From assembly GCA_900258555.1 (NCBI GenBank), contig LT984854.1:1642646-1690733 (forward strand): a stretch of DNA of 48,088 bases, read 5' to 3'. Under the pieces are notes generated by a model. The model was not told where the DNA came from and ran no database searches. It saw only the letters and a program-made list of their open reading frames with translations. Below are positions 25,291-47,306 of this stretch, in pieces. The DNA comes from an uncultured Desulfobacterium sp. GTDB taxonomy: Bacteria > Desulfobacterota > DSM-4660 > Desulfatiglandales > Desulfatiglandaceae. Each line of letters begins with the position of its first letter. Within the stretch, counting starts at the first letter, position 1. Made by a program: the position numbers and the translations under genes.

Positions 25291-26055
25291 ATGCAATTAA
25301 TTGTCCTTGGATCAGGAACAAGCATACCAATAGGTGACAGATCATCACCGTCCCTGGCCCTTATTGTTGAGGGCAGCACCATTGTTTTTGACTTGGGGCC
25401 AGGAGCCCTGTGTCAGCTTGCAAGGGCCGGACTGGACTATGAAAAAGTGGAGAGAATTTTCATCACACATTTTCACCCGGATCACACGGCAGACATCATA
25501 CATTTTCTATTTGCAAGCAGAAATCCAACAGTGTTAGGCAGAAGGCTCCCATTCGTCATCACCGGCCCTAACGGCCTGAAAGGCCTCTTGACTGATATTC
25601 AGAACGCTTTTCAGAACTGGCTCACTCTTACGCCTGATGCCATGAAAATTGATGAACTTGAAACGGGAATAACATCTAAAAGGGAATATGAGTGCTTCAG
25701 TCTGATTGCCTGCCCTGTTGACCATACACCTCACAGCCTTGCGTATCGAGTTGATGCAAGATCTGGAAAAAGCCTTGTATACTCAGGTGATACAGGCTAT
25801 TGCGATGATATAATAGAAATCGCCTCAGGGACTGATCTTCTGGTCCTTGAGTGCTCTTTTCCTGATGGAAAAGAGATGCCAGGACATCTTACGCCGTCAC
25901 AGGCAGGAAAAATCGCAAGTATGGCGAAGGTAAGGCGCTTGTTGCTCACCCATTTTTATCCGGAATGCCTTGAAACCGACATTGAGGCCCAGTGTCGTAA
26001 GACCTACCAGGGCGAAATAATACTGGCAAGTGATCTGTTGCGTGTTTCCGTTTAA
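25291..26055 (+). CDS. RNase Z-like metallo-beta-lactamase-fold hydrolase
   Basis: A 254-residue protein of the RNase Z / ElaC branch of the metallo-beta-lactamase fold. The N-terminus LIVLGSGTSIPIGDRSSPS is typical, and the metal motif THFHPDHTADI lies near residue 65. Further ligands are expected in CPVDHTPHSLAYR (~150), YSGDTGYCDDI (~170) and LLTHFYPE (~220). It is somewhat shorter than classical RNase Z and the tRNA-binding arm is not obvious, so a different phosphodiester substrate is possible. It sits after the sat terminator and overlaps the convergent small gene by 4 bp. Confidence 0.88.
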   Translation: MQLIVLGSGTSIPIGDRSSPSLALIVEGSTIVFDLGPGALCQLARAGLDYEKVERIFITHFHPDHTADIIHFLFASRNPTVLGRRLPFVITGPNGLKGLLTDIQNAFQNWLTLTPDAMKIDELETGITSKREYECFSLIACPVDHTPHSLAYRVDARSGKSLVYSGDTGYCDDIIEIASGTDLLVLECSFPDGKEMPGHLTPSQAGKIASMAKVRRLLLTHFYPECLETDIEAQCRKTYQGEIILASDLLRVSV

Positions 26056-26249
26056 TTCAGGGAATGCCTTATACCTTTATATTCAAAAAGAACTGAAGGA
26101 TTAAATGTGTTATAGCTGAGACATTGGGCAATTGCTCCTGCATGCTTTTTCAGCCATAAATGATAATTCCTTTGCAGAGCTGGATCACTAAAAGTCCATG
26201 TCTCTCCCAATGACTTCAATTCCTCAATCACGCGCCAATACAGGTGCAT
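26052..26249 (-). CDS. Small protein of unknown function behind a cobalamin riboswitch
   Basis: A 65-residue soluble protein that I do not recognise. It starts at the ATG 26249 with a strong GAGGAGG ribosome binding site 5 nt upstream; an in-frame ATG at 26270 lacks one. Tryptophans and aromatic residues are frequent (MHLYWRVIEELKSLGETWTF, NYHLWLKKHAG) and it has a single cysteine. There is no signal peptide or membrane segment. Upstream on the same strand lie an intrinsic terminator (26281-26315) and a complete cobalamin riboswitch, and no other gene follows, since the next gene converges. It is thus the only gene this riboswitch can control nearby. A link to B12 is inferred from this context alone. 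Confidence 0.7.
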   Translation of the reverse strand: MHLYWRVIEELKSLGETWTFSDPALQRNYHLWLKKHAGAIAQCLSYNTFNPSVLFEYKGIRHSLN

Positions 26250-26280
26250 ATTATCCTCCTCAAGATACATTCCTAATAAA

Positions 26281-26315: not shown

Positions 26316-26380
26316 TTTCCCTTTATATCCACAAGATCCTTATAAGGCCTCTGTCCACGAAGGCAAAAGTTCTATTATGT

Positions 26381-26557
26381 TCAGGCAGGTCTTCTGACTT
26401 ACGGATCTGCAGACACGAGGTCTGCTCCTACTCGCCGCGCCTTCCCGTTTCGATAAAACTAAACAGTGGCGTCTTGCGGCATTCGTCCCCGATCACAGCG
26501 GCGGGCCCGTCCCCGGTTTGCACGGGGTTCCCTTTTATGCTCTGACTGAGCGCCTGA
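26381..26557 (-). ncRNA. Cobalamin riboswitch
   Basis: Read on the minus strand, the sequence has the cobalamin aptamer landmarks in order: AAAAGGGAA, an AACCGGGG-type hairpin, GGGCCCGCCGCTGTGA, the B12-box region GCCACTG then GGGAAGGCG, and the end segment AGTCAGAAGACCTGCC. The outer helix P1 forms from TCAGGC and GCCTGA at the two ends. A promoter lies directly upstream and a terminator downstream. Repression by adenosylcobalamin or a related corrinoid is the expected mode. Confidence 0.93.
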
Positions 26558-26565
26558 GACTCTAA

Positions 26566-26594
26566 TTTTTAAAGATGATAGAGTTTAAAGTCAA
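26566..26594 (-). promoter_or_regulatory. Promoter of the cobalamin riboswitch transcript
   Basis: On the minus strand TTGACT (26589-26594) and TAAAAA (26566-26571) are 17 bp apart. Transcription would begin right at the first bases of the aptamer. Confidence 0.5.
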
Positions 26595-31055: not shown

Positions 31056-33821
31056 TTAGGCCTTTTCTATCTGCACCGCGCAGGCCTTGTATTCCGCAGT
31101 CAGCGTTTCCGGATCGAATGCTGCATTGGTCAGCCAATTGGCGCATCCCTCCCTGAAATGAAAGGCCATCCACACCATGCCCTTTGGGACTTCGGGCGTG
31201 ACCCTGGCCTTAACGATTACCTCACCCCGTCTGGATTTGACGCGGACCATTTCATTCTGCGCAACACCCAATAGCTCTGCGTCCTCCTTCGATATATCCG
31301 CTGTTTCCTCCCCGAGCAGATCGTTCAAGCCAATGCAATTACCGGTTTGTGTCCGTGTATGGTAATGGTAAAGCCGCCTGCCCGTGCTAAGTACGAACGG
31401 GTAATTGCCATCCGGGACCTCTGCGGGCGGCGTCCATTCCACGGCCTTGAACAATCCCTTGCCGCGGGTGAATTTGCCGTCTTTGTGCAGATATTCAGTG
31501 CCCGGGTGGTCCTCCGTGGGACAAGGCCACTGGAGACCGTTGTTTTCAATGCGGCTGTATTTAATACCGGCAATACTGGGCGCCAACACGGAGATTTCAT
31601 TATCCCACAAATCCCGGCCGCTGTTGGAAGGCCATTGATGACCGAATCGTTTGGCGATCTCCTTGAAGATCCACCAGTTGGGTTTTGCATCGCCAGGTGG
31701 GGTGCTTGCCTTTCTCACACGGCTGACCCGTCGTTCACTGTTTGTAAAGGTACCGTTGTTTTCGCTCCAGGCCGCCGCAGGAAATATCACATGGGCAAAT
31801 CGGGTGGTTTCGGTCTGAAAGATATCGTTGCATACGAGAAATTCCGCGGAAGCAAGTTCGTGTTCAACCTTGTGTATATCAGGTTCCGTATTGGCCAGAT
31901 TTTCACCGAATATATAAAACGCCTTTACCTTACCGTCTACCAACCCCTCCATCATCTGAGGGATCATCAGACCTACCTTGTCCGGCAAATTTTCTACTCC
32001 CCAGGCCTTTTCAAACTTCTGTCGCGCTGCGGGATCTGTTACCGATTGATATCCGGGAAAGACATTGGGCAGGGCACCCATATCGCAGGCGCCCTGGACA
32101 TTGTTCTGCCCCCTCAAAGGATTGACCCCTGCGCATTCCACGCCTAAATTGCCCAAGAGCATCTGGAGATTGGCCACTGATATGACATTATTTTTGCCGC
32201 AGGTATGTTCCGTGATCCCCAGCGTATAACACAACATGACAGGCTTTACCGAGGCCATCCGTCGTGCGGCATCCCGGATGAGATCAGCGGGGATTCCGCA
32301 TATCTCGCTCGACCACTCAGGCGGATATTGCATTACCTTTGCCTTAAGTTCTTCAAAGCCCTCACACATTGATTCCACGAAGTGGTGGTCATACAAATCC
32401 TCGGTGATCAAGACGTTCATCATGGCGTTTAATAGGGCTATATCCGATCCAACCCGGAGCGGCAGATGTATCTCTGCAAAATCCACCAGGCGGTGTTTCC
32501 TCGGATCCGCCACAATCAGCCTGGCGCCATTTTGAACCGCATTTTTCAGAAAAGTTGCGGCAACGGGATGTGCTTCGGTCATGTTGGAGCCGATCACAAA
32601 AAACATTTTCGCCTTTGAAAACTCTTTAAAAGAGTTGGTCATTGCACCTGATCCGAAAGATGTCGCCAGCCCGGCGACGGTGGGGGCGTGTCAGGTACGG
32701 GCGCAATGATCTATGTTATTGGTTTTAAAAACAGACCTGAACAGTTTTTGCATCTGATAGGAGTCTTCACTGATACTGCGGGCGCAACTTACTCCGGCAA
32801 TTGCATCCGGTCCGTGTTCGGCGATAATCGCCTTGAATTTATCGGCAACCAGGTCCAGTGCTTCATCCCACGATGCCTCCCTGAAGCCGCCGTTTTCCCT
32901 TATCAAAGGGGTCTTAAGCCTATCCTTTGAATATATAAAGTCATACCCGAACCTGCCTTTGACGCACAGCCGTCCTTTATTGGGAGCTCCATCCTCTACG
33001 CCCGTCACTTTAACGATTTTGTCATCCTTTACATGGAGATTGACTTGGCATCCCACACCGCAATAGGGGCAGGTGGAACGGACCTTTTGGATTTCCCGGG
33101 GCCGCCAGTGAAATCGTGCCTTTTTTTCCACCAGGGCGCCCGTGGGGCAAGCCTGAATACATTCCCCGCAAAAAACGCAGTCCGAATCTTTCAATGGCCG
33201 ATCACCGGGGGTGACGATCTTTTTAACCGGGCCGCTATCGCCGAATGCAATGGCGCGATTGACCTGAATTTCATTGCACGCTGCAACACACCTGCCGCAC
33301 AAGATACATCGTGAAAAATCACGAACAATCAAGGGATTTACCATCTCCATGGGAAACTTGCTTTCAATTCTGGGTTCGCCTCCGCCCTTAACCTGATATT
33401 GATAGGCTAAATCCTGAAGCCGGCAATCCCCCCAGGCCGGGCATAACTGCTCTGCGTCATCAGCCTTCATCGTTCCCATCTGAAAACTGGTCCATCTACT
33501 TTCCTGGGTTGATGCGATGGCGCAGTTGTGATTGCCGGTGGCAAGCAACATGGCAATGGTGTCTTTTCTAGACGCTATCACCGCGGGAGACTCCGTTCGA
33601 ACAAACATATGATCCGAGGCAATTGTGCTGCAGGCGGAAAGGAGTTCTTTTGAACCTTCCACCTCCACCACACATATCCCGCATCGGCCCGTGGGGGTGG
33701 TGCCTTTGAGATAACAGAGGGTGGGAATCTGTATGTCATGCGCCTGAGCCACCTCAAGAATGGTCTGATTCCCTGAGAAAGAGCATTCGTTACCGTTGAT
33801 AAGGATAATTGCCTCAGTCAT
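31056..33821 (-). CDS. fdhA: Selenocysteine formate dehydrogenase alpha subunit
   Basis: A 921-residue Mo/W-bis-MGD formate dehydrogenase, read through TGA 32691-32693 as Sec377. N-terminal region: 2Fe-2S ferredoxin domain (CYLKGTTPTGRCGICVVEVE), a His/Cys cluster region, and two [4Fe-4S] motifs CILCGRCVAAC and CVFCGECIQACP. The catalytic part starts with CPYCGVGCQ; the active site is NIDHCART-Sec-HAPTVAGL, the exact place of Sec in known enzymes. The C-terminal MGD-binding domain ends the protein. The ATG at 33821 has GGAGG 8 nt upstream; an in-frame start at 33890 is less likely. The N-terminal layout is of the cytoplasmic NAD(P)- or ferredoxin-linked type, with no Tat signal. It lies downstream of a TupA-like gene. 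ORF callers would split it in two. Confidence 0.95.
32662..32693 (-). promoter_or_regulatory. bSECIS element of fdhA
   Basis: Starting 12 nt after the TGA on the minus strand, GTCGCC pairs perfectly with GGCGAC around the loop GGGCT. Distance, stem length and loop guanines closely match known formate dehydrogenase SECIS elements. Confidence 0.85.
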
Positions 33822-34017
33822 TCGGAAATCCTCCGTATATTTTAATGGTTGGTGTATTATGATTTGCGACAGGCATATTTTTTTATCCAAAGAAAATAAA
33901 TTTCAGCTTTTAGCACCGTAATAACGCTATGTCAATATTGTCATAAGGATTTAAATTTGACTTCAGCGGGTCAATCTTAAGACCTCAATCTACTTCTCCT
34001 GAGTAGTCCCTGAAATG

Positions 34018-34896
34018 TTAGTTATCCCATGTCGTGGCAACTTCAGCGTCGTTATAAAGGGCTGTTCCGAATTCATTTTTCCCGTATTCTTTGAAGATTT
34101 TTTGCCCTTCTGGTGAGCCCATAAATTCCAAAAACTTGACTGCAAGGCTGCAATTGACTGAGGGCCTTTTTTTCTCTGAGGCAACAAGGCCATGGTAGAC
34201 ATTTACCAGGACAGGATCTCCTTTGAATAAAACCTTCAGGTTCTTTATCTTTGAGGCCTCTGCAATATAGGTGCTGGAATCCACCATAAAGTAACCAAGC
34301 TCATTATCTGCGCGCTTAAGTGTCGGCCCCATAAAGTCGTTCGTTACAATATACCATGAGCCCGCTGGCTTTATCCCTGCAATTTCCCAAACAGCAATTT
34401 CCTTTCTGTGCGTGCCGGAATTGTCTCCACGGGAAAAGAATTTAACCTGGGACCGCGCGACCATCCTATAGGCCTCTATTGCGGTTGTGGCCTTGCTGAT
34501 CCCTGCCGGATCTGATTCAGGACCGAGGATGTAAAAGTCATTACAACCCAGTAGAGTCCTTGCTTTCGCCCAGCCCTCTGCCACGGCCTTTTTTTCCGCA
34601 TCAGGGGAATGGGTCATGACCATGTCCACCTTGCCTGACTTTAGGGCCTCAAGGGATTCGCCGCTTCCCATGTTGATCCAGTTGACCCGACACTTATGTG
34701 TGCTGCAGAAGGGTTCTGCCAGGGCCTTTAGAAGCCCAAGCGACCCAGGACTACCTGTAGCTACACAAATGGATTGATTTCCTTTTCCGTAAGTTGCGTC
34801 ATATTTCTGATTATCTAATGCGAAAACTTTGTATTCAGAAAAGTTTAACATCAGGCAAAACAATACCAGGACACCTAACCTAATTTTGAGAAGCAT
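34018..34896 (-). CDS. tupA: TupA-like tungstate-binding protein
   Basis: A 292-residue periplasmic solute-binding protein of the TupA family, which catches tungstate for an ABC importer. A signal peptide covers about residues 1-26. Oxyanion-site regions are visible: ATGSPGSLGLL near residue 45, MGSGESLEAL near residue 78, MTHSPDAEKKAV near residue 92, and FFSRGDNSGTHRKE near residue 152, the most characteristic TupA motif. No tupB or tupC genes adjoin it. It lies just upstream of fdhA on the same strand, which suggests that the formate dehydrogenase uses tungsten; that part is inference. Confidence 0.85.
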   Translation of the reverse strand: MLLKIRLGVLVLFCLMLNFSEYKVFALDNQKYDATYGKGNQSICVATGSPGSLGLLKALAEPFCSTHKCRVNWINMGSGESLEALKSGKVDMVMTHSPDAEKKAVAEGWAKARTLLGCNDFYILGPESDPAGISKATTAIEAYRMVARSQVKFFSRGDNSGTHRKEIAVWEIAGIKPAGSWYIVTNDFMGPTLKRADNELGYFMVDSSTYIAEASKIKNLKVLFKGDPVLVNVYHGLVASEKKRPSVNCSLAVKFLEFMGSPEGQKIFKEYGKNEFGTALYNDAEVATTWDN

Positions 34897-35077: not shown

Positions 35078-35842
35078 CTATTTCAGGTATTTTTCTTTGT
35101 ATTCTTTCCAGGAAAAATCAGGGGCCTGTGTCACCTCAAATATCTCTTTGTCGGGTGCAGTCAAAATCTTATTGCTGATACACTTGCCCATCCTGGAAAC
35201 CAGGGCCTTTGCCTCAGGATCTGTATCCTTTTTTGCCTTTGCCTCTTCAAATTCCTTAGGAAACTCAAATTTGTTATTGAGCTTTATCGCCTTTCCGCTG
35301 GTCATGCTCGCAAAGATATATGAAGAATTGCCTATGGTTTCATCAAAGGCAAGGTTGCCGTTAAAAGCCCCATTAGAACCCTTCGAGTAACGCGCCCCGG
35401 TAATGAATGATACTGCATCCGCAGGACAAGCCCTGGCAGTGCCGCAGACCACAAACTGGTCTCCTCGGGGTGCTATCTCACCCGGATAAAGATTCGAAAG
35501 GGCAATCTGACAGGCCCTGTAACCCAAGGCTACACCTGGACAGACCTCACCGTGGAATTTTTTAATATCCTTGATACCAAGTGTGATGTATGAGCCGCAC
35601 GACTTACCGCACCCTTCCTTGCCTTTTCCGCACGGCTTTTCATTCTCTTTCTTTTCACAGTTCTTCATGCATTCATTTTTGCAGGACTCGCCGCCTTTAT
35701 TAGGCAGTTTCATCGTTATGATCGGTGCCCCGTCCCAGCCTTTACATCCTGCAAGTGCATGGTCCCATGCCCTGAGAGCAATAATACAAAGTACCAGGCT
35801 GCCAATGATAAAACCAATCTTAAACAGCTTATTTCCATTCAT
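35078..35842 (-). CDS. Exported FmdE-domain protein
   Basis: A 254-residue protein with an N-terminal membrane segment or signal (IGFIIGSLVLCIIALRAW), a cysteine-rich linker at about residues 50-85 (CKNECMKNC, CGKGKEGCGKSCG), and an FmdE-type domain with FHGEVCPGVALGYRA near residue 97. FmdE domains occur in formylmethanofuran dehydrogenase subunit E and in many proteins encoded near molybdenum or tungsten enzymes. The later FmdE motif is altered (CGTARACPADAVSFITGAR). Placed just upstream of the TupA-like gene and fdhA on the same strand, a role in metal or cofactor handling in the periplasm is plausible but not proven. Confidence 0.8.
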   Translation of the reverse strand: MNGNKLFKIGFIIGSLVLCIIALRAWDHALAGCKGWDGAPIITMKLPNKGGESCKNECMKNCEKKENEKPCGKGKEGCGKSCGSYITLGIKDIKKFHGEVCPGVALGYRACQIALSNLYPGEIAPRGDQFVVCGTARACPADAVSFITGARYSKGSNGAFNGNLAFDETIGNSSYIFASMTSGKAIKLNNKFEFPKEFEEAKAKKDTDPEAKALVSRMGKCISNKILTAPDKEIFEVTQAPDFSWKEYKEKYLK

Positions 35843-35973: not shown

Positions 35974-36381
35974 CTACAAATCCTTTTCTGTAGCAAGGCA
36001 TAGCCTTCCGGCCCCTGCTGACTTTGCCACGTCCATAATTTTTACCGCCTTATTTAATATAACAGTTCTATCTGCCCTGATCACCACCAGCTTGTCCTTA
36101 TCGTCCCCTATCATTTCCTTGACCCTTTTAAAGAGATCTCCCATATTGATCTCCTGCTCGTCTAAAAAAGGCCTGCCATCCCTGTCAACAAAGATCGTTA
36201 TCGTTTCTTCAACTTGCGGCTTGGAGGCCTTGGCCTGAGGGAGTTTGATATTTATCCCTTCGTCCACTATGAAATTAGTAGTCAACAGAAAATAGATCAA
36301 CAGCATGAAGACGATATCTATCAGCGATGTCAAAGGCATTGTTACCAAATACGGTGTCTTTTTTTTACGCTGGATTATCAC
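35974..36381 (-). CDS. exbD: ExbD/TolR-family biopolymer transport protein
   Basis: A 135-residue inner-membrane protein with one N-terminal transmembrane helix (LTSLIDIVFMLLIYFLLTTNF) that carries the conserved Asp needed for proton use in ExbD/TolR. A periplasmic domain follows (INIKLPQAKA, KLVVIRADRTV). It works with ExbB and TonB to energise outer-membrane receptors. The gene is directly after exbB with 1 bp between them, at the end of the TonB block, and is followed by repeat copy A. Confidence 0.93.
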   Translation of the reverse strand: MIIQRKKKTPYLVTMPLTSLIDIVFMLLIYFLLTTNFIVDEGINIKLPQAKASKPQVEETITIFVDRDGRPFLDEQEINMGDLFKRVKEMIGDDKDKLVVIRADRTVILNKAVKIMDVAKSAGAGRLCLATEKDL

Positions 36382-36382
36382 T

Positions 36383-37000
36383 TTATCTCTCGTTTCTAAG
36401 GGATGATAAGGTCTTCAAAAAAACTACAGTACCTTGCTGTATCCTTGCCTCATAGCTGTCCACACGGGAAAGAAGATAGCTATGTCCCACCACAATTGGA
36501 AGGGCCACTGCAAGCCCAAAAGCAGTGGTCAGCATCGCCTCCCATATGCCGCCTGCAAGGACTGCTGCATTTACCTTCCCGCCCATTTCCTGTATCACCA
36601 TAAACGCCTTGATCATGCCGAGCACTGTGCCCAAAAGCCCCAGCATGGGGGCAACATTTCCTATGGTAGCAAGGGCTTGTAGATAACGGGAAAGGTCCTG
36701 GACTTCTTCCTCGGTGGCATGGACTATAACGGTTTCAATGGTGTCGCGGTCCTGGTCTTTGACCTCCAGGGCCTTGACCAGAACCCTGCCTACGGGGGAA
36801 TTACTTCTTGAGGCGATCTGTAAGGCCTCTTCATCGTTGTTGATCTTCAGCTTTTCCGTAACCCTGATCTCAAGATTTTTTCCCCGTTTCAGCATGCGAC
36901 CGAAACGGATAAATCGCTCAAGAAAAATAGCCAAACCTACTACTGAGCATAACAGGATTGGCCACATGCATATACCGCCCTTTACTAAAAACTCTAACAT
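36383..37000 (-). CDS. exbB: ExbB/MotA-TolQ-family proton channel
   Basis: A 205-residue inner-membrane protein of the MotA/TolQ/ExbB family with three transmembrane helices: near the N-terminus (MWPILLCSVVGLAIFLERF), around residue 110 (LATIGNVAPMLGLLGTVLGM, the family signature) and around residue 160 (LTTAFGLAVALPIVVGHSYL). I chose the ATG at 37000 for its GGAGG site 5 nt upstream; an in-frame start at 37027 is inferior. With ExbD it supplies proton-motive force to TonB. It overlaps nothing and follows the 23-repeat protein by 19 bp. Confidence 0.92.
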   Translation of the reverse strand: MLEFLVKGGICMWPILLCSVVGLAIFLERFIRFGRMLKRGKNLEIRVTEKLKINNDEEALQIASRSNSPVGRVLVKALEVKDQDRDTIETVIVHATEEEVQDLSRYLQALATIGNVAPMLGLLGTVLGMIKAFMVIQEMGGKVNAAVLAGGIWEAMLTTAFGLAVALPIVVGHSYLLSRVDSYEARIQQGTVVFLKTLSSLRNER

Positions 37001-37019
37001 ATTTTCCTCCCTTTCTCCC

Positions 37020-38858
37020 TCATTCACCTGCCCCCTTATTCACCTGCACTCTTTCGCCCATTCCAGCCTTTTCGCCTTCATTCTCTTCAACGTCGGGTAG
37101 GCCATCGAAGTCAATATCTCTCGACCTTTTAATCATGGCCTCAGATTCATCATACTCTTCCCATATATCCGGTCTGCCGTCGTTATTTGAATCTTCTTCA
37201 ACTCTCGAGACTCGGCCCTGCTCGTAATGGTACCACAGGTCGGCCGTTCCGTCGCCGCTGGCATCCTTTTCAGCATTTACTGCCTCTTCCTTTTCGTTGT
37301 AATACCAGACAGTGTTTATTTTTCCGGTATCGCCGTTGTCTTCTTCACTCTTTGTCAGTTTGCCGCCTTCATTATAATATTCCCTCAGATCAGGATTTCC
37401 GTCTGCATCATCATCTATTTCCTTAAGCTTAAGGAGCCCTTCTTTATAGTAATAACGCACATCAGGCCGGTTGTCTGCGTCAACATCCGTCTCTATGACC
37501 ACAGACCAGTCAGGTTTGTTGAACCACTGGGTTGTCTCAAACCTGCCGTCATGGTCCTGATCCATCAGGAGTTTTATCTTATTTTCGTTGTTATCAAAAA
37601 ACACCTTCTGATCAACATCCCCGTTTTCGTTTACATCCTTTTCCATCCTAATGATCTTTTCGGACTGATAGTATTGCCAGGTATCGGTTTTTCCATCATA
37701 GTCGGTATCACTTTCAACCCTTTCCTTTTCTTCTTTCCTGTTAAAAAAAATGATTATATCAGGCCTTTTGTCCTTATTATCATCAAGGGTCTGAGTAGAG
37801 AGCCTGCCTTCTTTAAAAAAAGATATCTGATTTAAATAACCGTCACCTTTTGTGTCATACTCACACTTAACCTGCTCACCCTTTTCAAAGTAACTTATCC
37901 TGTCAATACGTCCAGCGTACCTGGTGTCTTCGCGGATCTTCATGGGTTGACCACTGGAGTCAAAATCGCAGAAATAATCCCTTGTACCGTCAAAGTTGGT
38001 ATCCTTTTCCTGAGATGCCGGAACACCTGCCTTAAATTTTAACCACACGTCAAATGCCTTATCATTGTTGGTGTCTTTTTGTTCTTCCAGGGGTTTTTCA
38101 TCTTTGTATGAGGTTATGACCTCATACCATCCATCAAGATTCATATCCTTTTTTTGCTCTGCGATTTTACCCCGCTTGAAGGATCTAAATGTATCCATGT
38201 TACCGTCTTTATCTGTGTCCAGCCTACACTCTTTGGGGAGTCCTTCTTCATCAAAAAAAACAATTTTTTCTATCTTGTCGTCAGCGTTCAGATCCTCTTT
38301 TCTTTCAACAGGTTTATCGTTACGGTATGTCTCCCGGATGTTTATTTTACCATCCTCATCTGTGTCTCTTGTGGAATTGGAGAGTCTGCCTTCCACATAG
38401 TAATAGAAGGTATCAAAGTTATTGTCTTTAGTGGTATCTCTTTCTATTTTCAAAGGTCTTTCTTTTTCGTCAAGGAGCAGGATGTAATCAATCTTCCCAT
38501 CGCCTGTGTTATCCCGTTCCTGACGCCGCCTTTTTCCCTTTTCAAAATAGTCCCAGCAATTTATTTTGCCGTTGTAATCAGTATCACTTTCAAGCCTGAT
38601 AATCTGCTCCTTTTCATAGTACTGGAACCGATCCATGTTGCCGTCGCCATTGCTGTCAACATCCATCTTGACCAACCGGCCGTGATCAAAATGTGAAATC
38701 TGATCCACTTTACCGTCATTATTGGTATCCCGGGTCTTGGTGGTGTCATCGGACCAGGTGGTGACAGGACAAAACAAAATTGCAGTAAAAATGACAAGGC
38801 TTATAAAATTCCTGTTTAAATGCATGATTGGCTGTCCATGTTTCTTGTTTATCATCAT
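37020..38858 (-). CDS. Exported protein of 23 acidic EF-hand-like repeats
   Basis: A 612-residue exported protein built almost wholly of repeats. After an N-terminal signal segment (NFISLVIFTAILFCPVTTW) I count 23 units of about 23-25 residues, each starting with a D-x-[DN]-x-D-G-x-x-D type loop (for example DSNGDGNMDR, DTDYDGKTDT), then an aromatic strand and a short turn. The Asp-rich loops resemble calcium-binding dockerin/VCBS loops, so calcium-dependent folding or binding in the periplasm or at the surface is likely. The start ATG overlaps the tonB stop by 4 bp, which ties it to the TonB-ExbBD block. I know of no assigned function for such a gene inside a tonB operon. Confidence 0.82.
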   Translation of the reverse strand: MMINKKHGQPIMHLNRNFISLVIFTAILFCPVTTWSDDTTKTRDTNNDGKVDQISHFDHGRLVKMDVDSNGDGNMDRFQYYEKEQIIRLESDTDYNGKINCWDYFEKGKRRRQERDNTGDGKIDYILLLDEKERPLKIERDTTKDNNFDTFYYYVEGRLSNSTRDTDEDGKINIRETYRNDKPVERKEDLNADDKIEKIVFFDEEGLPKECRLDTDKDGNMDTFRSFKRGKIAEQKKDMNLDGWYEVITSYKDEKPLEEQKDTNNDKAFDVWLKFKAGVPASQEKDTNFDGTRDYFCDFDSSGQPMKIREDTRYAGRIDRISYFEKGEQVKCEYDTKGDGYLNQISFFKEGRLSTQTLDDNKDKRPDIIIFFNRKEEKERVESDTDYDGKTDTWQYYQSEKIIRMEKDVNENGDVDQKVFFDNNENKIKLLMDQDHDGRFETTQWFNKPDWSVVIETDVDADNRPDVRYYYKEGLLKLKEIDDDADGNPDLREYYNEGGKLTKSEEDNGDTGKINTVWYYNEKEEAVNAEKDASGDGTADLWYHYEQGRVSRVEEDSNNDGRPDIWEEYDESEAMIKRSRDIDFDGLPDVEENEGEKAGMGERVQVNKGAGE

Positions 38859-39550
38859 GTCAATTCAAAGACAACTACCACCTTCACAGGAACAGGGCCT
38901 TTAAAAATGGTCAAAGGCGGTCTTGGAAACGGTGATGAGGCCTGTATAGCCTTTATGGCGGCCTGATCAAGAAGTTCGTGCTGAGGCGTAATCACCTTTA
39001 CATCCTCGGCCAGTCCTTCAGGGGAGATAACAAAGCTTACAGGGACACGGCCTTGGATCTGACGCTCCTGGGCCATCAGGGGATACCTCTTGTGCCGCTC
39101 AATTCGGAGCTTTACCATTTCAAGATAACTCGCAGCAGTTGAAAACACCTCTGCGCCGTCATTGAACATATCCGGCTGCCATTGGCTTACAGATATATTA
39201 GAAGTTTCACCTACATCGGGCGATGGAATACTTTCTCCAATGCGGCTATCAGGTTCATCAGGGTGCACGATTTTTGGGGGAGCCTGCTGCGAAGGCTGTA
39301 TTCTGGTAAGTTTCAGCACGCGGGGATTTTCAGCCTTTGGAGGCGATTTTAGACGCTGCGGCGGTCTTAGTATATCCCTCGTCCAGGGTTTGCTGATATC
39401 TTTTAATTCCAGCTCGATATAATGTAGTGATTTCCAGTTATAAAAGCCGGATATATGGATCAGTATAATTAGATGTATCCCTAAGGATATGCAAAGCAAA
39501 ATACGCAACATCCAATTGGGGCCTGATTTCTTTATCGTTACATCTCCCAC
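38855..39550 (-). CDS. tonB: TonB-family energy transducer
   Basis: A 231-residue TonB-like protein: a single N-terminal transmembrane helix (LRILLCISLGIHLIILIHI), a proline-rich periplasmic linker at about residues 60-110 (RPPQRLKSPPKAENP), and a C-terminal TonB domain (HKRYPLMAQERQIQGRVPVS, DQAAIKAIQASSPFPRPP). It contacts outer-membrane receptors and is powered by ExbBD. It is the first gene of the tonB, repeat protein, exbB, exbD block, starts 56 bp after repeat copy B, and overlaps the next gene by 4 bp. Confidence 0.93.
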   Translation of the reverse strand: MGDVTIKKSGPNWMLRILLCISLGIHLIILIHISGFYNWKSLHYIELELKDISKPWTRDILRPPQRLKSPPKAENPRVLKLTRIQPSQQAPPKIVHPDEPDSRIGESIPSPDVGETSNISVSQWQPDMFNDGAEVFSTAASYLEMVKLRIERHKRYPLMAQERQIQGRVPVSFVISPEGLAEDVKVITPQHELLDQAAIKAIQASSPFPRPPLTIFKGPVPVKVVVVFELT

Positions 39551-39745: not shown

Positions 39746-41551
39746 TCACGGAAGCCGGGGGGAACCGGCTCCCGGTTGTTTTCCACAGCACTCATCCTTT
39801 TTGGTTTCAAGGCAAGGCCCCACATAGATCAGTCCAAGAAATTTTTCAGGGTGTTGCGCAGCTGCGTGTTCAAGACCATCCAGGGTCGTCTGCACCAGAT
39901 CTTCGCTTCCGGAATAGCCCGACTTGTAGACAAGGCATGCAGGGGTATCTGTCTTGTAATGGATCTTAAATTGGGATACAAGTTCAGGCAGGTCCTTAAG
40001 ACCCATAAAAATCGCCATTGTCTCACCTTTCTCGGCTATTGCCTTTATCAGGTCAGGGTTTTCCTTTATGCCTCGCGGTGTAGCCAGGACAATATTCCCA
40101 TTACATCCGATGCGTTCGCTTATCATTGCATTGGATACATTAAAAGAGCTCAATCCAGGGATAACTTCAATCCGGTCTGCCTTGAAATAATCCCTGGCCC
40201 AACTCCAGCCGCTCCAGATCGTGGGGTCTCCATAATCCAGAATGGCGACTGTCCTTTTATTATCCAATTCGGTCCGGATCTTCTGTGCGGCCTCTTTATG
40301 CTTCTGATCTAAAATCCCTTGAATCTGATCCTCGGATAACCCCGGATTTGCCTTTCTGACCTTGGGCGGGGCGAATTCATAGATATCGAGGAGGACCTTT
40401 TTCCCTCCCAGATATTTTTGAAATCGCTTTGTGATATCTTCAGGGGCCACAAAGACATCCGCCCTGGCCATATAGGAAATCGCCTCAAGGGTTATCAGAT
40501 TGGTGTCTCCGCAACCGATACCTATAACGTACAGCTCGGGCTGTCTGTGCAAAGAAATGATTTCAATCTTTTCAAGCGCCTTTACATCCCTGTCAGACAT
40601 CAGGTCATCCGGCGGAACCAGCACGAATTTTCCGCCGTTTTCAATGTCTTCGTTATTGATCTTATCCGCAACAAGCATCCGATCACCTGCCGGGTCCAGG
40701 TAGATCTCACCGTACGAAAACAGGGTTCGATACCCGTCAGGCGCTGATGCAAGAAATACCTGGCTTAGGTCCGGTTTTACATCTACGTTTTCCAGTAGTG
40801 ACTTCAGATAAGTACCTTGATAATTATCTATTCCGTGAAAACCCTTTCCCTCACCAATGTGCTTTACGGTCATTTTGGTCTTTGGAAAACCGGAAAGCTT
40901 CTTGATGGTCTTTGGCTTGATGTCAGGTCCGATGATGGAAAATTCCTTCGAAAATATCTTCTCCGACTTCTGTGATGGCATCCTAGGTTTTAAGTCTACC
41001 ACCTCAATTGATGTGACACCGTCTAGACACCGGTCTGCAAATGTATCACTGTTTACTACAAGCTTTGGAAAGGAAATGCTCCTCTTCAACTGATCCATCC
41101 TTGGCTGGTATTCTTCAGTAGTGTGACAACCGGCACAGGAATGTTTCGGCATGATCGGCTGGGCCGACGTGGCAATAACTATTCTGCCAGGATTTCTGTA
41201 AAACACCTCTCCCCAGGAAAGGGCAATCTCCTTGCCGTTCTCACCCCGGACCAGAATGGCCAGATCCACCTTTTTGTTGAATGCGCTTTCTTCCTTTTCA
41301 ATGCTTGCCAGCTCCAGCAGTGTTTTTAACGGGACGCCCTTGTAGCTAAAGACGCCCCGAAAGCTCCCATCCTGCATGACCTCGTTTAACTGAACATTAA
41401 TTGCCTCAAAGCCTGATAGGTCTTCAAGAGACAGATTTAAGGGCTGTTTGACGAGTCCTACAATGCCCAATTGAGATGGAGCGGCAAAGAGGACACCTGA
41501 AGCAAATGCCCATATCACTATGGAAATCAGAAGAACAAACTTATGTCTCAT
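39746..41551 (-). CDS. Exported fusion: Mo-domain-like, CxxCH, tetrapyrrole-methylase-like
   Basis: A 601-residue protein with a signal peptide (residues 1-24, ending GVLFAA). Residues ~30-330 hold two segments resembling sulfite-oxidase-type Mo-cofactor domains (YKGVPLKTLLELA, YQGTYLKSLLENV); the first contains CAGCH (~residue 139), a c-type heme motif. Residues ~340-590 look like a tetrapyrrole (cobalamin/siroheme) methylase: LYVIGIGCGDTNLITLEA (usual GxGPG is GCG), the GDP motif DYGDPTIW, VIPGLSSFNVSNA and FMGLKDLPEL. Exporting a methylase fold is strange, because S-adenosylmethionine is cytoplasmic; it may bind rather than methylate a tetrapyrrole. It lies between a TonB-dependent receptor and tonB, next to cytochrome c maturation genes. 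Confidence 0.75.
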   Translation of the reverse strand: MRHKFVLLISIVIWAFASGVLFAAPSQLGIVGLVKQPLNLSLEDLSGFEAINVQLNEVMQDGSFRGVFSYKGVPLKTLLELASIEKEESAFNKKVDLAILVRGENGKEIALSWGEVFYRNPGRIVIATSAQPIMPKHSCAGCHTTEEYQPRMDQLKRSISFPKLVVNSDTFADRCLDGVTSIEVVDLKPRMPSQKSEKIFSKEFSIIGPDIKPKTIKKLSGFPKTKMTVKHIGEGKGFHGIDNYQGTYLKSLLENVDVKPDLSQVFLASAPDGYRTLFSYGEIYLDPAGDRMLVADKINNEDIENGGKFVLVPPDDLMSDRDVKALEKIEIISLHRQPELYVIGIGCGDTNLITLEAISYMARADVFVAPEDITKRFQKYLGGKKVLLDIYEFAPPKVRKANPGLSEDQIQGILDQKHKEAAQKIRTELDNKRTVAILDYGDPTIWSGWSWARDYFKADRIEVIPGLSSFNVSNAMISERIGCNGNIVLATPRGIKENPDLIKAIAEKGETMAIFMGLKDLPELVSQFKIHYKTDTPACLVYKSGYSGSEDLVQTTLDGLEHAAAQHPEKFLGLIYVGPCLETKKDECCGKQPGAGSPRLP

Positions 41552-41616: not shown

Positions 41617-43629
41617 CTAAAAACTGCCCCGGATGCCGCAGAAGGCCTCACGTCCCTCTCTTGGAAATCCGTAGCTGGTCTCATAGTTCTCGTCAAATAT
41701 GTTTCTAACTCCGACTTCAAATGTAGCCATATCATAGAGGTCCGCCATGGCCTTCAAATCAACAACCCAATAGTCATCCAGGTCTACCCAACTTTGGTCT
41801 CTTTTTTGTGCCCACTGCTTTCTGTTATACTCTGCTTTGGCATACAGGGAAAACCAATCCGTAACGGTAAGCAAATCGCTCATGTATAGCTGATATTTGG
41901 GTATTTCGCTGAGGTGCGAGCTGGTTCGGTCGTCTGAACGGTTTTCGGAATCCAGATAGGTGTAGTGGGCCTCGAGGGTATTTAAAGGCAGACCATTTGT
42001 CTTGGCGCTGAGTTCAAATCCACGGAATCTTGACTGCCCAATGTTTTCTGTAATAGTAGTTCTGTCAGGCAATGTTCTTCTGTTGATTAGATCCTCTACG
42101 TCGGAATAGAAAAGAGTAAAGCCAGCAATGCTTTCCCATGGCAGTGGTCTTTGTATTCCTGTCTCGTAATTTACTGATTGTTCCTTTTTTAAATTAGGAT
42201 TGGGAGTAACAGAGCCCAGATAAGATGAGTAAAGTTCATTCAAGGTTGGGAACCGTGTTTTTTTGGCTACAGAAAAATGGAGCCTCGTCGCGTCTTCAAA
42301 AGTATAGTGTGCACCCCCTAAAAGATTCCATGCCTCCTCATTGGACCTCACTTCATCTCCATTTGCATATTTAGGGTCTTGAACATCGTAGCTGGTTCCT
42401 AAGACAAACCCAAAATTATCAGTAAGTTTAGTTTCATTTTCAAGACCATAGGAAAACATTTTGGATTCATACCTTTCCCATGACGCCCCATAGTCGTCCT
42501 GTTCCTTATGCGTATCTTTTTTGTAATGGAATGAAGCGCTGGTAGTATTGTCCTCAATATACTCTGATTTAAGGACTATAGAGCCTCCGTCTGTGTGATC
42601 ATCATAGGTACTGTGAAAGGCGTATCTGGCATTCTGAGTGGTAAAGGTTTCGTCATCATAGGCATCAAGAACATTAAAGTATTGATCATGATACAAGCGT
42701 GTCTTGGCCGATAACTGGTCTGTTATCCTGCTGTCTCCTATAAAGTAATATGTCTTTTTTTCCCAATCGGCAAATCTTCGATACATCACACTTTCACTTG
42801 GATATACATTTGTAGGCCAGCCCTTTTCGTCGCTCCTTACATGATGGAAACCCACCGCATACTCATGGCCCTCTGAAGGCACAATACCCATTTTCAATGT
42901 CTCTGAAAGGCTTTCTATGTCTGAATTATCTCTCTTATAACCGTCCTCATACCAGCCATCTCTATTTGCGGGTTTGGGTGAGTAAGCATGCGACATCCTG
43001 TAATCACCATAATCAAGACCAGATACACCGCCCATAAAATAGAATTTGTCCATCTTCGAGCCTAGATTCAGATTCCCGAGATAGCCGCTTCTGTTGGCTT
43101 CTGCACCATATGAGCCCTCAAAGGCCTTTTGAGGTTTCATGGAAATAATATTAATAACTCCGCCCATGGTATTTGGTCCATACAGCACGGAGGCAGCCCC
43201 TTTGGTCAGGGTAACCTGAGAGAGATTACCAGTAGGAATCTCGCTTGAATCAACATAGCCGTCATTAGGGATGTACCAAGGAATGCCGTCATAAAAGATA
43301 GGGACATATTTCTGATTAAAACCACGGACATTCAGATATGCCTCATTTCTCTGACCCGTTGCGACATGAACACCGGGAAGTGTTTCAAGCGCGGATGAAA
43401 GATCCGTGGAATTTGTCAGGTCCAGTTGCTCCCTATCTAGCGTCTCAACTGTGGCCACTTGTGATATAATTGAAGACTCTCCTGAAACCACTACCTCGCC
43501 TAAGTCAAAAACATTGCTTTCCTTTTCGGCATCACCGACTTTTTCTTCAGCCCAGCCCAGGCCAACAAAGGTTGAACATAACAGGATTAATAAATAAAGA
43601 ATTGCCTTTGTCTTTAATCTTGACCTCAT
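41617..43629 (-). CDS. TonB-dependent outer-membrane receptor
   Basis: A 670-residue outer-membrane receptor. A signal peptide (LLILLCSTFVGLGWA) is followed by a TonB-box-like DLGEVVVSGE, a plug domain (SALETLPGVHVATGQRNEAY, LNVRGFNQ, LYGPNTMGGVINI) and a long beta-barrel of alternating aromatic strands that ends with a terminal Phe (CGIRGSF), the assembly signal. The plug is of the BtuB/CirA class, but the substrate (cobalamin, heme, siderophore) is not decided. It is followed by the exported tetrapyrrole-methylase-like fusion 65 bp on and preceded by resB. There is no riboswitch in front of it. Confidence 0.93.
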   Translation of the reverse strand: MRSRLKTKAILYLLILLCSTFVGLGWAEEKVGDAEKESNVFDLGEVVVSGESSIISQVATVETLDREQLDLTNSTDLSSALETLPGVHVATGQRNEAYLNVRGFNQKYVPIFYDGIPWYIPNDGYVDSSEIPTGNLSQVTLTKGAASVLYGPNTMGGVINIISMKPQKAFEGSYGAEANRSGYLGNLNLGSKMDKFYFMGGVSGLDYGDYRMSHAYSPKPANRDGWYEDGYKRDNSDIESLSETLKMGIVPSEGHEYAVGFHHVRSDEKGWPTNVYPSESVMYRRFADWEKKTYYFIGDSRITDQLSAKTRLYHDQYFNVLDAYDDETFTTQNARYAFHSTYDDHTDGGSIVLKSEYIEDNTTSASFHYKKDTHKEQDDYGASWERYESKMFSYGLENETKLTDNFGFVLGTSYDVQDPKYANGDEVRSNEEAWNLLGGAHYTFEDATRLHFSVAKKTRFPTLNELYSSYLGSVTPNPNLKKEQSVNYETGIQRPLPWESIAGFTLFYSDVEDLINRRTLPDRTTITENIGQSRFRGFELSAKTNGLPLNTLEAHYTYLDSENRSDDRTSSHLSEIPKYQLYMSDLLTVTDWFSLYAKAEYNRKQWAQKRDQSWVDLDDYWVVDLKAMADLYDMATFEVGVRNIFDENYETSYGFPREGREAFCGIRGSF

Positions 43630-43662: not shown

Positions 43663-44472
43663 TTAATTTTCCTTTTCCGGCCTCTGCCACGTCATGACCA
43701 GATGGACACCTATCCCCAATATCATCAAGGGATAGATGATGAGAAACACCTTTAGAATCGGGTTGCAGGCAATAGCTACCATTACACCCGGAGTTGTGCT
43801 TGATGATGAGGGATCTGCCTCAGGGGGAGTGAATCGTTTTAAAGTGACCTGTAAATTCCCATGGTGAAACGGTTCCAAAAGATACACTCGACCATGGGTC
43901 AGAACCTGATTCGCCTTTTGAAGCGCAACCTCAACAAAATTTTCCTTGTAATGGAATTCGCCGTTCTTGATGTCCCTGCGGGTCTTGTTCAGTACCTGGG
44001 CATCATCTACAAAATGGACTTCCAGCAACTTTAGCTGGAGATCATCTTCGAATGAAAATGTTTCCCCTTTTTTAAGGCCTACATCATCATACTTGTACCC
44101 CAGCATGAACCCCCCCAGATGGCCCAGAGCCACCAGTCCGAAGATTATGTGGACAACAAGCATAAAGAGCATCGCCCCGCTGAAGCGATGGCGCATGATC
44201 TTGAGTATCCGGTTCCACGAGCAGAAGACCAGGTTTATACCCATGACAACCATGATCAGGCAAAGACCGATAAACCAGGCCTTTAAAAACGTCGAGCCGT
44301 GTCCTTGATTGAAAAGCCAGTCCCTGGTCAGGGTCATGTTCATTTCCCTGAATGCGGCAAAAAAATTTTGATTAGCGCAAAGGATTGTTCCAATGACGAA
44401 CCAGAGGAAAAGTGTTACAAGTGTCCATGTGGCAAAACCTAGGGAAGATAACTGCTCTGTGACTCTGCTCAT
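43663..44472 (-). CDS. resB: ResB-like cytochrome c biogenesis protein
   Basis: A membrane protein of about 269 residues of the ResB/Ccs1 type, which works with CcsA to carry heme across the membrane and attach it to apocytochromes. It has three or four transmembrane helices, three in the first half (TWTLVTLFLWFVIGTI, FIGLCLIMVVMGINLVF, MLVVHIIFGLVALGHLGGFM) and one near the C-terminus (FLIIYPLMILGIGVHLV), around a periplasmic loop. I chose the ATG at 44472, which overlaps the ccsA stop by 4 bp; an upstream in-frame start at 44649 would run 177 bp into ccsA. It is shorter than classical ResB. Confidence 0.8.
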   Translation of the reverse strand: MSRVTEQLSSLGFATWTLVTLFLWFVIGTILCANQNFFAAFREMNMTLTRDWLFNQGHGSTFLKAWFIGLCLIMVVMGINLVFCSWNRILKIMRHRFSGAMLFMLVVHIIFGLVALGHLGGFMLGYKYDDVGLKKGETFSFEDDLQLKLLEVHFVDDAQVLNKTRRDIKNGEFHYKENFVEVALQKANQVLTHGRVYLLEPFHHGNLQVTLKRFTPPEADPSSSSTTPGVMVAIACNPILKVFLIIYPLMILGIGVHLVMTWQRPEKEN

Positions 44473-45230
44473 AAGGTGCTCCGGTAGGCGATAAGCGCCA
44501 ATATCAAAAATCCGCTGATAATGCCGAGCCTGGGCCGCCAGTTCCCTTGGCGGTGATTTGATCCTGGCACATGAACGGCAAGCATGAATAACAACACAAT
44601 GATGGTGGACTGGAAAAAGCCAGGGCCCCACTGCCAGAAATCTCCCCATCCCCTAAGGCACCATCGGATCCCTGTATATTCCGCAGTAAGAAAGAGCATG
44701 GCGCCCAGCAAAAGAAAATTCCTGCCTTGGTGGGCGCGGTTTATCGCAATAGAATTGCCTCTTTTGATATCTAATCTTGATTGGATATAAAGTGCTGAGG
44801 CAAACAGGGTTATGGATATAACTGCAACACGAAGCCCGTGGAATAATACAATAGTAGGGTCGTTATAATCATAGCCGAAAAAAGACGGCTCCTTAACTGA
44901 AAAGGCGGCAAGAGCCATGATCAGAAGCATCTCAAGCCAGACCCAGAATCTGACATCAGGGAGTTTTTCCTCCTGGCTGCTGAAGAGCAGGCCAATAATG
45001 GCAAGCAATGCGGAGCCAAGCATCAAGGATTCAAAAAGCCTGAATACAGGTGCATGGCGGGATATCGTCACAAGGATAAACAGACCTGCAATGTTGGCGA
45101 TCAAACCGGCTATCGCTCCTAAGCTCTCTGCTCGCCTTTTTCGGAGTAACGTGAAGAGGAAGGTAAAAGCGTAAAAGAGAAATGTAACCCAGAAGATTAT
45201 GGCCAAAGGCGATTTCATAACACAAACCAC
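44469..45230 (-). CDS. ccsA: CcsA/ResC-like cytochrome c assembly protein
   Basis: A 253-residue integral membrane protein with about eight helices. The tryptophan-rich segment GWGDFWQWGPGFFQS near residue 205 matches the WWD heme-binding signature of CcsA/CcmC proteins, and conserved histidines lie on helices near it (LFHGLRVAV). With ResB it forms a system II cytochrome c synthetase. The start is GTG at 45230; an ATG at 45218 is equally possible. It is the first gene of the minus-strand envelope locus. The exported CxxCH protein three genes downstream could be one of its substrates. Confidence 0.85.
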   Translation of the reverse strand: MVCVMKSPLAIIFWVTFLFYAFTFLFTLLRKRRAESLGAIAGLIANIAGLFILVTISRHAPVFRLFESLMLGSALLAIIGLLFSSQEEKLPDVRFWVWLEMLLIMALAAFSVKEPSFFGYDYNDPTIVLFHGLRVAVISITLFASALYIQSRLDIKRGNSIAINRAHQGRNFLLLGAMLFLTAEYTGIRWCLRGWGDFWQWGPGFFQSTIIVLLFMLAVHVPGSNHRQGNWRPRLGIISGFLILALIAYRSTL

Positions 45231-45920
45231 ATTACCTTTGACCGATATGTCGGTTGAGGTAAAGACTAAACATTTTGATAATAAACATACTTAACTCGCT
45301 GAAATATTAAAATAGTTACTATGTTATATTTTTTAATGCCGATATGTACGCAAAAATATATCGGGCTGTGTCAAGAATTATTTTCATAGGTTTCTGAAAT
45401 CCAGGTTATCTCCGAGATTTTGATATGTCTTTATAGGCATAATGAATTTCACTCAAAAAGCGCAAAAAACGCTTAAAACCATCAAACGGGGCGAAAAGAA
45501 CACTTTTGGTTTGTAATTGTCAAGTAAAATTTCATGTGCTTTAACTTATAAAAATAATTACTTATTATCTTGAATATTTACTCAAAATAACTTTTATATG
45601 GTCTCCGACCGAAGATATACCGGATTTATAAAAAGGGAGCTTAACAGGCCTTGTGGTAGGAGGGTAAGATTGACGCTGCGATGATTGACATGATATTCAG
45701 GCCACTCAAGACCCTGATAATCTCGTAAAAAGTCAGAAATCGCCTTTTTACTCAGTTTTAGGTTTTAGGTGTTATGTTTTAAGAGGTTAAAATCAAAAGG
45801 CAATTTAAACATAAAACTTAACACTTAAAAACTGATGAATTCGCCTTCTTACGAATTCATCAAAACTTATTCCATGCGAATCTATAAAACCTTACAGATA
45901 AAACAGAGTTATTGAAGATA
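45231..45920. other. Divergent intergenic region with inverted repeats
   Basis: This ~690-bp gap separates ccsA (minus) and the permease (plus). It is AT-rich and without a gene. At 45753-45834 an imperfect inverted repeat occurs (CAGTTTTAGG... and ...CTTAAAAACTG), and at 45834-45861 a perfect 10-bp palindrome GATGAATTCG/CGAATTCATC with an 8-nt loop. Promoters for both flanking operons should be here but none is clear. Confidence 0.55.
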
Positions 45921-47306
45921 ATGGAAGAACAGACAAACGGACTTAGAAGGCAGATCGGGTTTTTCTCCGCAACCATACTGGTTGTGGCCAATATGATCGG
46001 CACAGGAATATTCACCACCTCGGGTTTTATCATTGAGGAGCTTGGGGGCCCCGGGGCCATGCTTTTGTGCTGGGTCACAGGCGGCATCTTTGCCCTTTCA
46101 GGGGCGCTCTGTTATGGGGAGCTTGGTGCCATGTACCCTTTGGCAGGCGGTGAATATGTGTACTTGAGGGAGGCCTTTGGAAGACCGATGGCGTTTCTTT
46201 CCGGATGGATTTCCCTGATTGTGGGCTTTTCCGCCCCGATCGCCGCGGCATCAATTGCATTTGCGACCTATTTTTTCCGCGCCTTTCCTGCTCTGCTGCG
46301 CGGTGACGGAAATTTGCATTTTTTTGAAGGCATGGGCATTACAATATCCCCTATAAGTTTGGCTGCATTGGCTGTTATCATTTTATTTTCTCTTGTACAT
46401 TCCTACAGCCTATGGTTCGGAAGCAGGGTGCAAAATGTCCTTACTATCTTTAAGTTTACTTTGATCACCGGTTTTGTGATTGCGGGCCTCTTTCTGGGGA
46501 AAGGGGCTATGCCGGAATTGGTTAATGGTCCTTCTTTATCATTGGCCTTTTCAGGAAAATTTGCGGTCTCCCTGATATTTGTATCTTTTGCCTACAGCGG
46601 CTGGAATGCCGCCTCCTACCTCGGAAGTGAGATCAAAGATCCGGGCAGAAACATCCCCTTGGCGCTCGTAGTTGGCACCTTTGTTGTAATAGTTTTATAT
46701 CTGCTTTTGAACCTCACCTACATATTCGCCCTGCCTCTGGATAAGATGAGCGGGGTTTTGGAGATAGGCACGATGGCGGCTATCAGCCTTTTTGGTGAAA
46801 ACGTCAGCCATTGGGTCTCCGGGGCAATCGCCATAGGCCTTCTTTCGGTGATAAGCGCAATGATCCTGGCAGGTCCCAGGGTCTATTATGCCATGGCAAG
46901 GGACGGGGCCTTTGTGGATGGTCTGGCAAGGCTCAAGGGAAGGCACCAGACCCCTGCATACTCGATCATGTTGCAGGGGCTATTGGCAATTGCAATGGTA
47001 TTAACCGCATCATTTGATGAGCTTTTAATCTATATCGGATTTACCTTGTCGCTTTTTGCTATGTTAACAGTGTGCGGCCTGCTCCTGATAAGGAAACGAA
47101 AGAATGCCCCGGTTGCGGCTTACAGGACGTGGGGCTATCCAGTGACACCATTGATTTTCATCGCAGGCAACCTCTGGATAATCTATTACTCAATCATGAT
47201 CAAGCCCCTTGTCTCAGCCGTCGGCCTTTTAACCATTGGCATAGGTATTTTGATATATCTCTTGATCAAACGGCTGCATGCTACAGAGAACAGAGGCCGG
47301 AAGTAA
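45921..47306 (+). CDS. APC-family amino acid permease
   Basis: A 461-residue amino acid/polyamine/organocation permease with about twelve hydrophobic helices. The N-terminal VVANMIGTGIFTTSGF is the family's substrate-binding unwound helix (GxGIF), followed by ALSGALCYGELGAMYPLAGG, the second signature. FASYSGWNA-type residues in SFAYSGWNAASYLGSEIKDP mark helix 6. The nearest match is the amino acid transporter (LAT-like) branch. I chose the ATG at 45921; a TTG at 45912 adds 3 residues. It stands alone and its end lies 12 bp before the convergent truncated transposase. Confidence 0.9.
   Translation: MEEQTNGLRRQIGFFSATILVVANMIGTGIFTTSGFIIEELGGPGAMLLCWVTGGIFALSGALCYGELGAMYPLAGGEYVYLREAFGRPMAFLSGWISLIVGFSAPIAAASIAFATYFFRAFPALLRGDGNLHFFEGMGITISPISLAALAVIILFSLVHSYSLWFGSRVQNVLTIFKFTLITGFVIAGLFLGKGAMPELVNGPSLSLAFSGKFAVSLIFVSFAYSGWNAASYLGSEIKDPGRNIPLALVVGTFVVIVLYLLLNLTYIFALPLDKMSGVLEIGTMAAISLFGENVSHWVSGAIAIGLLSVISAMILAGPRVYYAMARDGAFVDGLARLKGRHQTPAYSIMLQGLLAIAMVLTASFDELLIYIGFTLSLFAMLTVCGLLLIRKRKNAPVAAYRTWGYPVTPLIFIAGNLWIIYYSIMIKPLVSAVGLLTIGIGILIYLLIKRLHATENRGRK

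Follow-up and report, generated by a model that had tools for sequence, protein, structure and literature searches.

The DNA analysed here, which we call the window, is a 48,088-nucleotide stretch from an uncultured Desulfobacterium sp., and the gene at positions 39746–41551 of its minus strand encodes an exported TP_methylase-fold protein of 601 residues in which a signal peptide, two domains with the sulfite oxidase (SUOX) fold and a TP_methylase domain follow one another. The signal peptide occupies residues 1–23 (41483–41551, minus strand, as for all features of this protein) and was assigned from the sequence, its hydrophobicity and its relatives; it reads MRHKFVLLISIVIWAFASGVLFA, with APSQ following a cleavage site estimated by eye, and its maximum hydrophobic 12-residue window is 2.9. 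The AlphaFold model and a fold match define SUOX-fold domain 1 (residues 27–186; 40994–41473), which contains CAGCH (residues 139–143; 41123–41137), a CxxCH motif like those that carry c-type heme. Domain 2 (residues 204–334; 40550–40942), assigned by Pfam, fold match and alignment, holds the motif GxGxG[FY]HG. Pfam, profile and model agree on a CbiF-like TP_methylase domain at residues 338–583 (39803–40540), with a Pfam match (PF00590) over residues 340–559 at E 5.7e-34 and 118.4 bits against a gathering cut-off of 27.8; Oxidored_molyb is matched at E 5.8e-8, best over residues 229–333, and the AlphaFold model, with a mean pLDDT of 86, contains two domains of that type. The first-pass annotation had placed an export signal and a cobalamin/siroheme-type methylase domain in this frame, and both hold. 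The signal peptide is of a standard kind, fused relatives with an intact N-terminus likewise carry one, and the next Met after the start is residue 57, within SUOX-fold domain 1, so that no alternative ATG start yields a complete cytoplasmic protein. The same annotation had reported the SAM motif GxGPG as altered to GCG; the loop is indeed changed, but less drastically, since it reads GIGCGD (40505–40522) and replacement of Pro by Cys347 is the sole departure from GxGPGD.

The gene lies, as was pointed out at first pass, between a TonB-dependent receptor (TBDR; 670 residues, 41617–43629) and TonB (38855–39550), both recognised by Pfam and both on the same strand. The plug, or N-terminal part, of this receptor has BtuB as its closest solved structure (E 9e-18). 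The order along the minus strand is a CcsA-like cytochrome c assembly membrane protein (44469–45230; 25.5 bits, below cut-off, although a relative in locus L099 passes), a membrane protein (43663–44649), the TBDR, the methylase-fold gene, TonB, an exported protein of many DxDxDGxxD repeats (37020–38858) of a kind that recurs beside ExbB in these loci, ExbB (36383–37027), ExbD (35974–36381), an FmdE-domain protein with a signal-anchor-like N-terminus (35078–35842) and a TupA-like substrate-binding protein (34018–34896; 116 bits, under the TupA cut-off of 400). ExbB, ExbD and FmdE are Pfam assignments, and the FmdE-domain protein may belong to the uptake system. The membrane protein has no Pfam match, is called ResB-like only on account of its CcsA-like neighbour, and probably starts at about 44469. 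An APC-family permease gene (45912–47306, plus strand) is divergent from this row. As a separate observation, the repeat protein shows a weak match to Lsa25.6.

Two Mo-oxidoreductase-like segments with CAGCH had been described for the N-terminal part of the protein. Two SUOX-fold domains and a CxxCH motif are present, but the Mo label is misleading, because the Mo-ligating Cys is missing. In an alignment to SorA that is weak (E 0.09), the fused proteins and the single N-part proteins have Val, Ile, Leu or Ala at the Mo-ligand Cys position of domain 1, and inspection by eye finds no Cys at the corresponding position of domain 2. On this weak alignment, these proteins lack the ligating Cys that marks Mo enzymes of the sulfite oxidase family (PF00174). 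Among the fold matches of the N-terminal part are sulfite oxidases, the best at Z 16.5, and, at Z 14–15, the pterin-binding PruR proteins. PruR is a periplasmic pterin-binding protein that also lacks the Mo-ligating Cys (PMC13259868), and the query shares with it the SUOX fold, an export signal and the absence of that Cys. The modelled N-terminal domains resemble PruR. They differ from it in being two tandem copies, in the inserted CxxCH, in the fusion to a methylase fold and in their linkage to TBDR and TonB genes instead of DcpA regulators; no DcpA-type regulator was recognised among the neighbours.

The CxxCH motif, its middle residues variable, recurs in 11/16 fused relatives and 3/4 single N-part proteins, beyond chance, and His239 in the GxGxG[FY]HG motif of domain 2 is nearly invariant across the fused set. 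As in c-type cytochromes, the CAGCH of the query belongs to a protein that carries an export signal, and to judge by sequence the CxxCH of the query and its fused relatives is probably a site of c-type heme attachment. CcsA-like genes are present in several of the fused loci.

Comparison of the methylase domain with CbiF and CobA, which had been suggested at first pass, finds the same fold. The AlphaFold model of the query superimposes on CbiF (1cbf) with Z 17.6 and an rmsd of 2.7 over 228 aligned residues, a standalone relative reaches Z 21.1 against the same structure, and the nearest structures overall are CbiF, SUMT and CysG. CbiF/CobM, the precorrin-4 C11-methyltransferase, and CobA/SUMT (PF00590) are also nearest by sequence profile. 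Unlike these enzymes, the query has an export signal, adjoins a TBDR and scores far under the equivalog cut-offs (70 bits against the CbiF/CobM model TIGR01465, whose curated cut-off is 259.65). A search of plasmids gave CobM/CobA-like matches alone, at 21–30% identity, among the matches listed. OphMA and SonM are further fold matches (Z about 14–17), with a weak profile match to SonM (E 9e-4), which could point to a borosin-like alpha-N-methyltransferase acting on a peptide or other small molecule. This seems highly improbable, as the query resembles CbiF and CobA much more closely, in sequence as well as in fold, and the mapped neighbourhoods contain no recognised precursor-peptide-like partner.

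A search for the same architecture covered 61 related genomes. Within the order it turned up the full fusion in eight genomes, counting the query's own, the other seven proteins being 43–82% identical to the query; a scan of genome contigs found the same-genus relative alone. We then used a profile of the methylase domain on 297 genomes of the phylum. Full-domain matches scored above about 150 bits and were followed by a gap, below which the cytosolic enzymes reached no more than 128 bits. The relatives analysed comprise 67 members in 61 loci of Desulfobacterota, mostly sulfate-reducing bacteria, and occur as fused proteins like the query, as standalone proteins of about 275–340 residues, as tandem doubles (L034, L037, L080–L083 and L088) and as a fusion to DUF4198 (L090). 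In the tree the exported and cytosolic domains part in one step, with a branch support of only 55, and the fused branch has a support of 99. Searches of the literature and of family libraries found no named family and no paper describing an exported TP_methylase-fold lineage.

A signal-peptide-like N-terminus is present in 61/67 members. Of the six exceptions one is a split gene (L092), and the other five (L110, L126 and L115–L117) truly lack the signal and adjoin ABC-importer genes, so some members would act in the cytoplasm. These five are the grounds for supposing that the signal peptide of the query is non-functional and that the protein works in the cytoplasm as an ordinary methylase, but they are nested in the exported clade as two separate groups. 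The prevalence of the signal, the lack of an alternative start giving a complete protein, and CxxCH and SUOX/PruR-like domains that suit the periplasm all argue against this possibility, to which we assign very little weight; the query is predicted to be periplasmic.

Linkage to TonB receptors extends across the family. A same-strand TBDR lies within 1.5 kb of 53/67 members, where a TBDR density of 3.0 per Mb, taken from nine of the member genomes, leads us to expect about 0.9% for each. Treated as independent, the members give a P of about 1e-95; they are related, so this value overstates independence, though the effect is plain. The lineage, which combines the TP_methylase fold with export signals, probably serves TonB-dependent metal uptake as a binding component.

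The residues around the SAM site have decayed. We use CysG numbering, and take P225, G226, D227, G301, D303 and M382 to be the positions that contact SAM. In the alignment, cytosolic relatives have P225 and G226 in 32/32 and D303 in 31/32. In the fused domains P225 is kept in 2/17 and replaced by Cys in 13; in the query P225 is Cys and G301 is Tyr, with GDP, D227 and M382 intact. In what we call the GPAG clade, GPGD has become GPAG, with G226 lost and D227 changed to Gly in 22/25 each, and GDP has become GNP in about half (D303 to Asn in 13/25). The domains of the TAND_b group retain GPGD and GDP and have lost M382. An Arg and a Glu found in 16/16 CbiF and CobA sequences occur in 0/75 family domains, the Arg being replaced mostly by Leu, Ile, Met or Val and the Glu by Trp in 53; both are also missing from about half of a wider cytosolic set, so their loss alone is no proof of inactivity. 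These degenerate loop residues, and the missing Arg and Glu, set the family apart from CbiF and CobA/SUMT.

Cys is rare in the family domains overall (1.2%), yet subclades have it at fixed positions of their own: 347, 369, 483 and 580 in the fused proteins, 444, 469 and 538 in the GPAG clade, and 402 and 411 in the tandem proteins. No single Cys position is shared by every subclade, and some members have none. Decay of the SAM site, at residues invariant among the cytosolic relatives, took a different course in each subclade, with Cys a frequent replacement. This pattern may be read as a loss of canonical SAM use, with the cleft lined anew, perhaps to suit a soft metal; alternatively, the recurrent Cys residues could form disulfides. 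Methylation has probably been lost in the family, although this is one of the weakest links in our interpretation. The fused branch retains D227, D303 and mostly M382 and so may still bind SAM.

These retained residues speak for a methylase that still uses SAM after export to the periplasm, as does the APC permease that adjoins family members in 28/61 loci and could perhaps supply cytoplasmic SAM; an exported nucleoside-hydrolase-like protein (IU_nuc_hydro+FmdE), present in 7 loci, would clear the products. The Pro, Gly and Asp of the SAM loop have decayed differently between subclades, none of the 75 domains retains the Arg and Glu typical of CbiF/CobA, and we consider such activity unlikely. 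A SAM pool is not known from the periplasm, which also counts against it. The particular case of methyl transfer onto an imported metal complex by the exported protein, with SAM perhaps exported by the conserved APC permease, appears very unlikely. As an observation on its own, the IU_nuc_hydro+FmdE fusion, found at 7892–9397 of locus L125 and in its relatives, often has His right after its signal peptide.

The nature of the cargo, another of the weakest links, is suggested by the genes around the family. DUF4198 adjoins members in 22/61 loci, the L090 fusion included, and one of these partners matches the solved structure of a Ni-binding DUF4198 protein. DUF4198 (PF10670) is a secreted family that binds Ni with a Kd of 18 nM and is also found beside TonB receptors (PMC12537917); it is a genomic partner of the methylase-fold family and not the same protein, and it is absent from the window's own locus. 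CbiM and CbiQ adjoin the member in L082, and FmdE, TupA-like, FecCD and Peripla_BP_2 genes recur near members. A cluster of 25 small partner proteins includes 21 with the pattern His-x-[ILV]-W close to the N-terminus, all 21 of which, selected by that pattern, have His directly after the predicted cleavage site. Consensus scans for NikR and ModE over 1.15 Mb gave no convincing site at family operons. From the Ni binding of DUF4198, CbiM and CbiQ, the recurrent metal-linked genes and the lone B12 riboswitch described below, nickel or cobalt is the best guess for the DUF4198-containing loci and probably their cargo; the window's locus is without DUF4198.

The first-pass annotation had proposed a corrinoid or heme as the ligand, and in a broader form the methylase-fold protein would bind a tetrapyrrole (corrinoid, heme, siroheme or a Ni or Co tetrapyrrole) imported by the TBDR. 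The nearest structures CbiF, SUMT and CysG and the BtuB-like plug of the window's receptor would suit this idea, as would the B12 riboswitch at the start of the L088 operon and the CbiB/CobD/CobS-like genes, named by eye from sequence, that adjoin the fused operon in the downstream half of loci L030 and L031. In the query's genome no CbiF exceeds the cut-off, and CbiF is present in only 2/13 fused-type genomes, although the p value of 0.02 for this depletion ignores phylogeny. There is also a precedent in CbiK-P, a cobaltochelatase that the sulfate reducer Desulfovibrio vulgaris exports to its periplasm and that is homologous to an enzyme of cobalamin synthesis (PMC4063343, PMC10320005); a title cited in PMC10320005 describes it as heme-binding. 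It belongs to a chelatase family, has no methylase fold and is unrelated to the proteins studied here. Against a tetrapyrrole, the B12 riboswitch occurs on 1 of the about 60 related operons checked, and we rejected it as a general regulator of the family. Over all members there is no association with the corrin pathway, CbiF being found in 13/34 member genomes vs 124/263 others (p = 0.36), and the commonest partners are metal-linked (DUF4198, CbiM/CbiQ, FmdE, TupA-like). The corrinoid or heme proposal is not supported, and we hold a tetrapyrrole ligand to be possible but doubtful. The window's methylase-fold operon carries no B12 riboswitch; elsewhere in the window a cobalamin riboswitch (26367–26572, minus strand) precedes, as its nearest same-strand downstream ORF, a reading frame of 72 residues (26052–26270, minus strand).

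The explanation that we favour, with a probability of about 0.55, is that the protein is a periplasmic component of the TonB-dependent uptake of a metal or metal complex, in which the methylase has been repurposed and methyl transfer has probably been given up. In this mechanism the neighbouring TBDR would release a metal or metal complex, and the TP_methylase-fold protein would receive it in the periplasm. The cargo may sit in the old inter-domain cleft, the former place of SAM and tetrapyrrole, which in several subclades appears from the alignments to have acquired conserved cysteines. In the fused branch, the SUOX-fold domains without Mo ligand and the CxxCH, probably bearing c-type heme, may make up another module, possibly redox-active, that could assist in reducing or releasing the cargo. 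The earlier suggestion that the methylase fold was recruited to bind or hold a ligand therefore gains support from the SAM-site decay and the TBDR linkage, and the protein is a putative binder. If so, a fold of the corrin/siroheme-methylase type has moved out of the cytoplasm and become tied to TonB receptors, some of them probably selenocysteine-containing, and to a Ni-binding partner. It would offer a testable candidate for a step of trace-metal uptake that takes place in the periplasm of sulfate reducers, and would exemplify the decay and re-use of a cofactor pocket.

Fifteen of the partner TBDR genes, all beside standalone members, have an in-frame TGA (L038, L046, L084–L086, L089, L093, L094, L110, L120–L123, L125 and L126). 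The break falls at RLPCP[TGA]DYYWWARC in 14/15 loci, and L122 has two in-frame stops, RMP*I*D. Two of the receptors were tested as read-through sequences and scored 1287 and 1129 bits against NCBIfam NF049947, whose cut-off is 800, which places these two among the selenocysteine TonB receptors of the PCPU motif type; the window's own TBDR differs from this type in having no in-frame TGA. Selenocysteine TBDRs have been reported previously (PMC12013277, PMC13188914), and in the literature we found no report of their cargo or of methylase-fold partner proteins. The receptors with an in-frame TGA are probably selenocysteine receptors. A tRNA-Sec gene and a SelB-like gene adjoin one of them (L154/L086). 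In the window itself, the formate dehydrogenase alpha subunit (31056–33890, minus strand) has an in-frame TGA within HCART-U-HAP and is a probable selenoprotein.

A terminator-like hairpin lies 90–360 nt upstream of TBDR starts at about 20 loci (for example L046, at about 6773, L110 and L115–L117). Only the terminator stem aligned in these leaders, with no larger conserved aptamer, and the hairpin corresponds to no Rfam family. It has a conserved stem, CCACGAAGGC...CTTCGTGG, followed by a T-run, and changes in the stem are compensated (C-G, A-T, G-C), making it a candidate attenuator.
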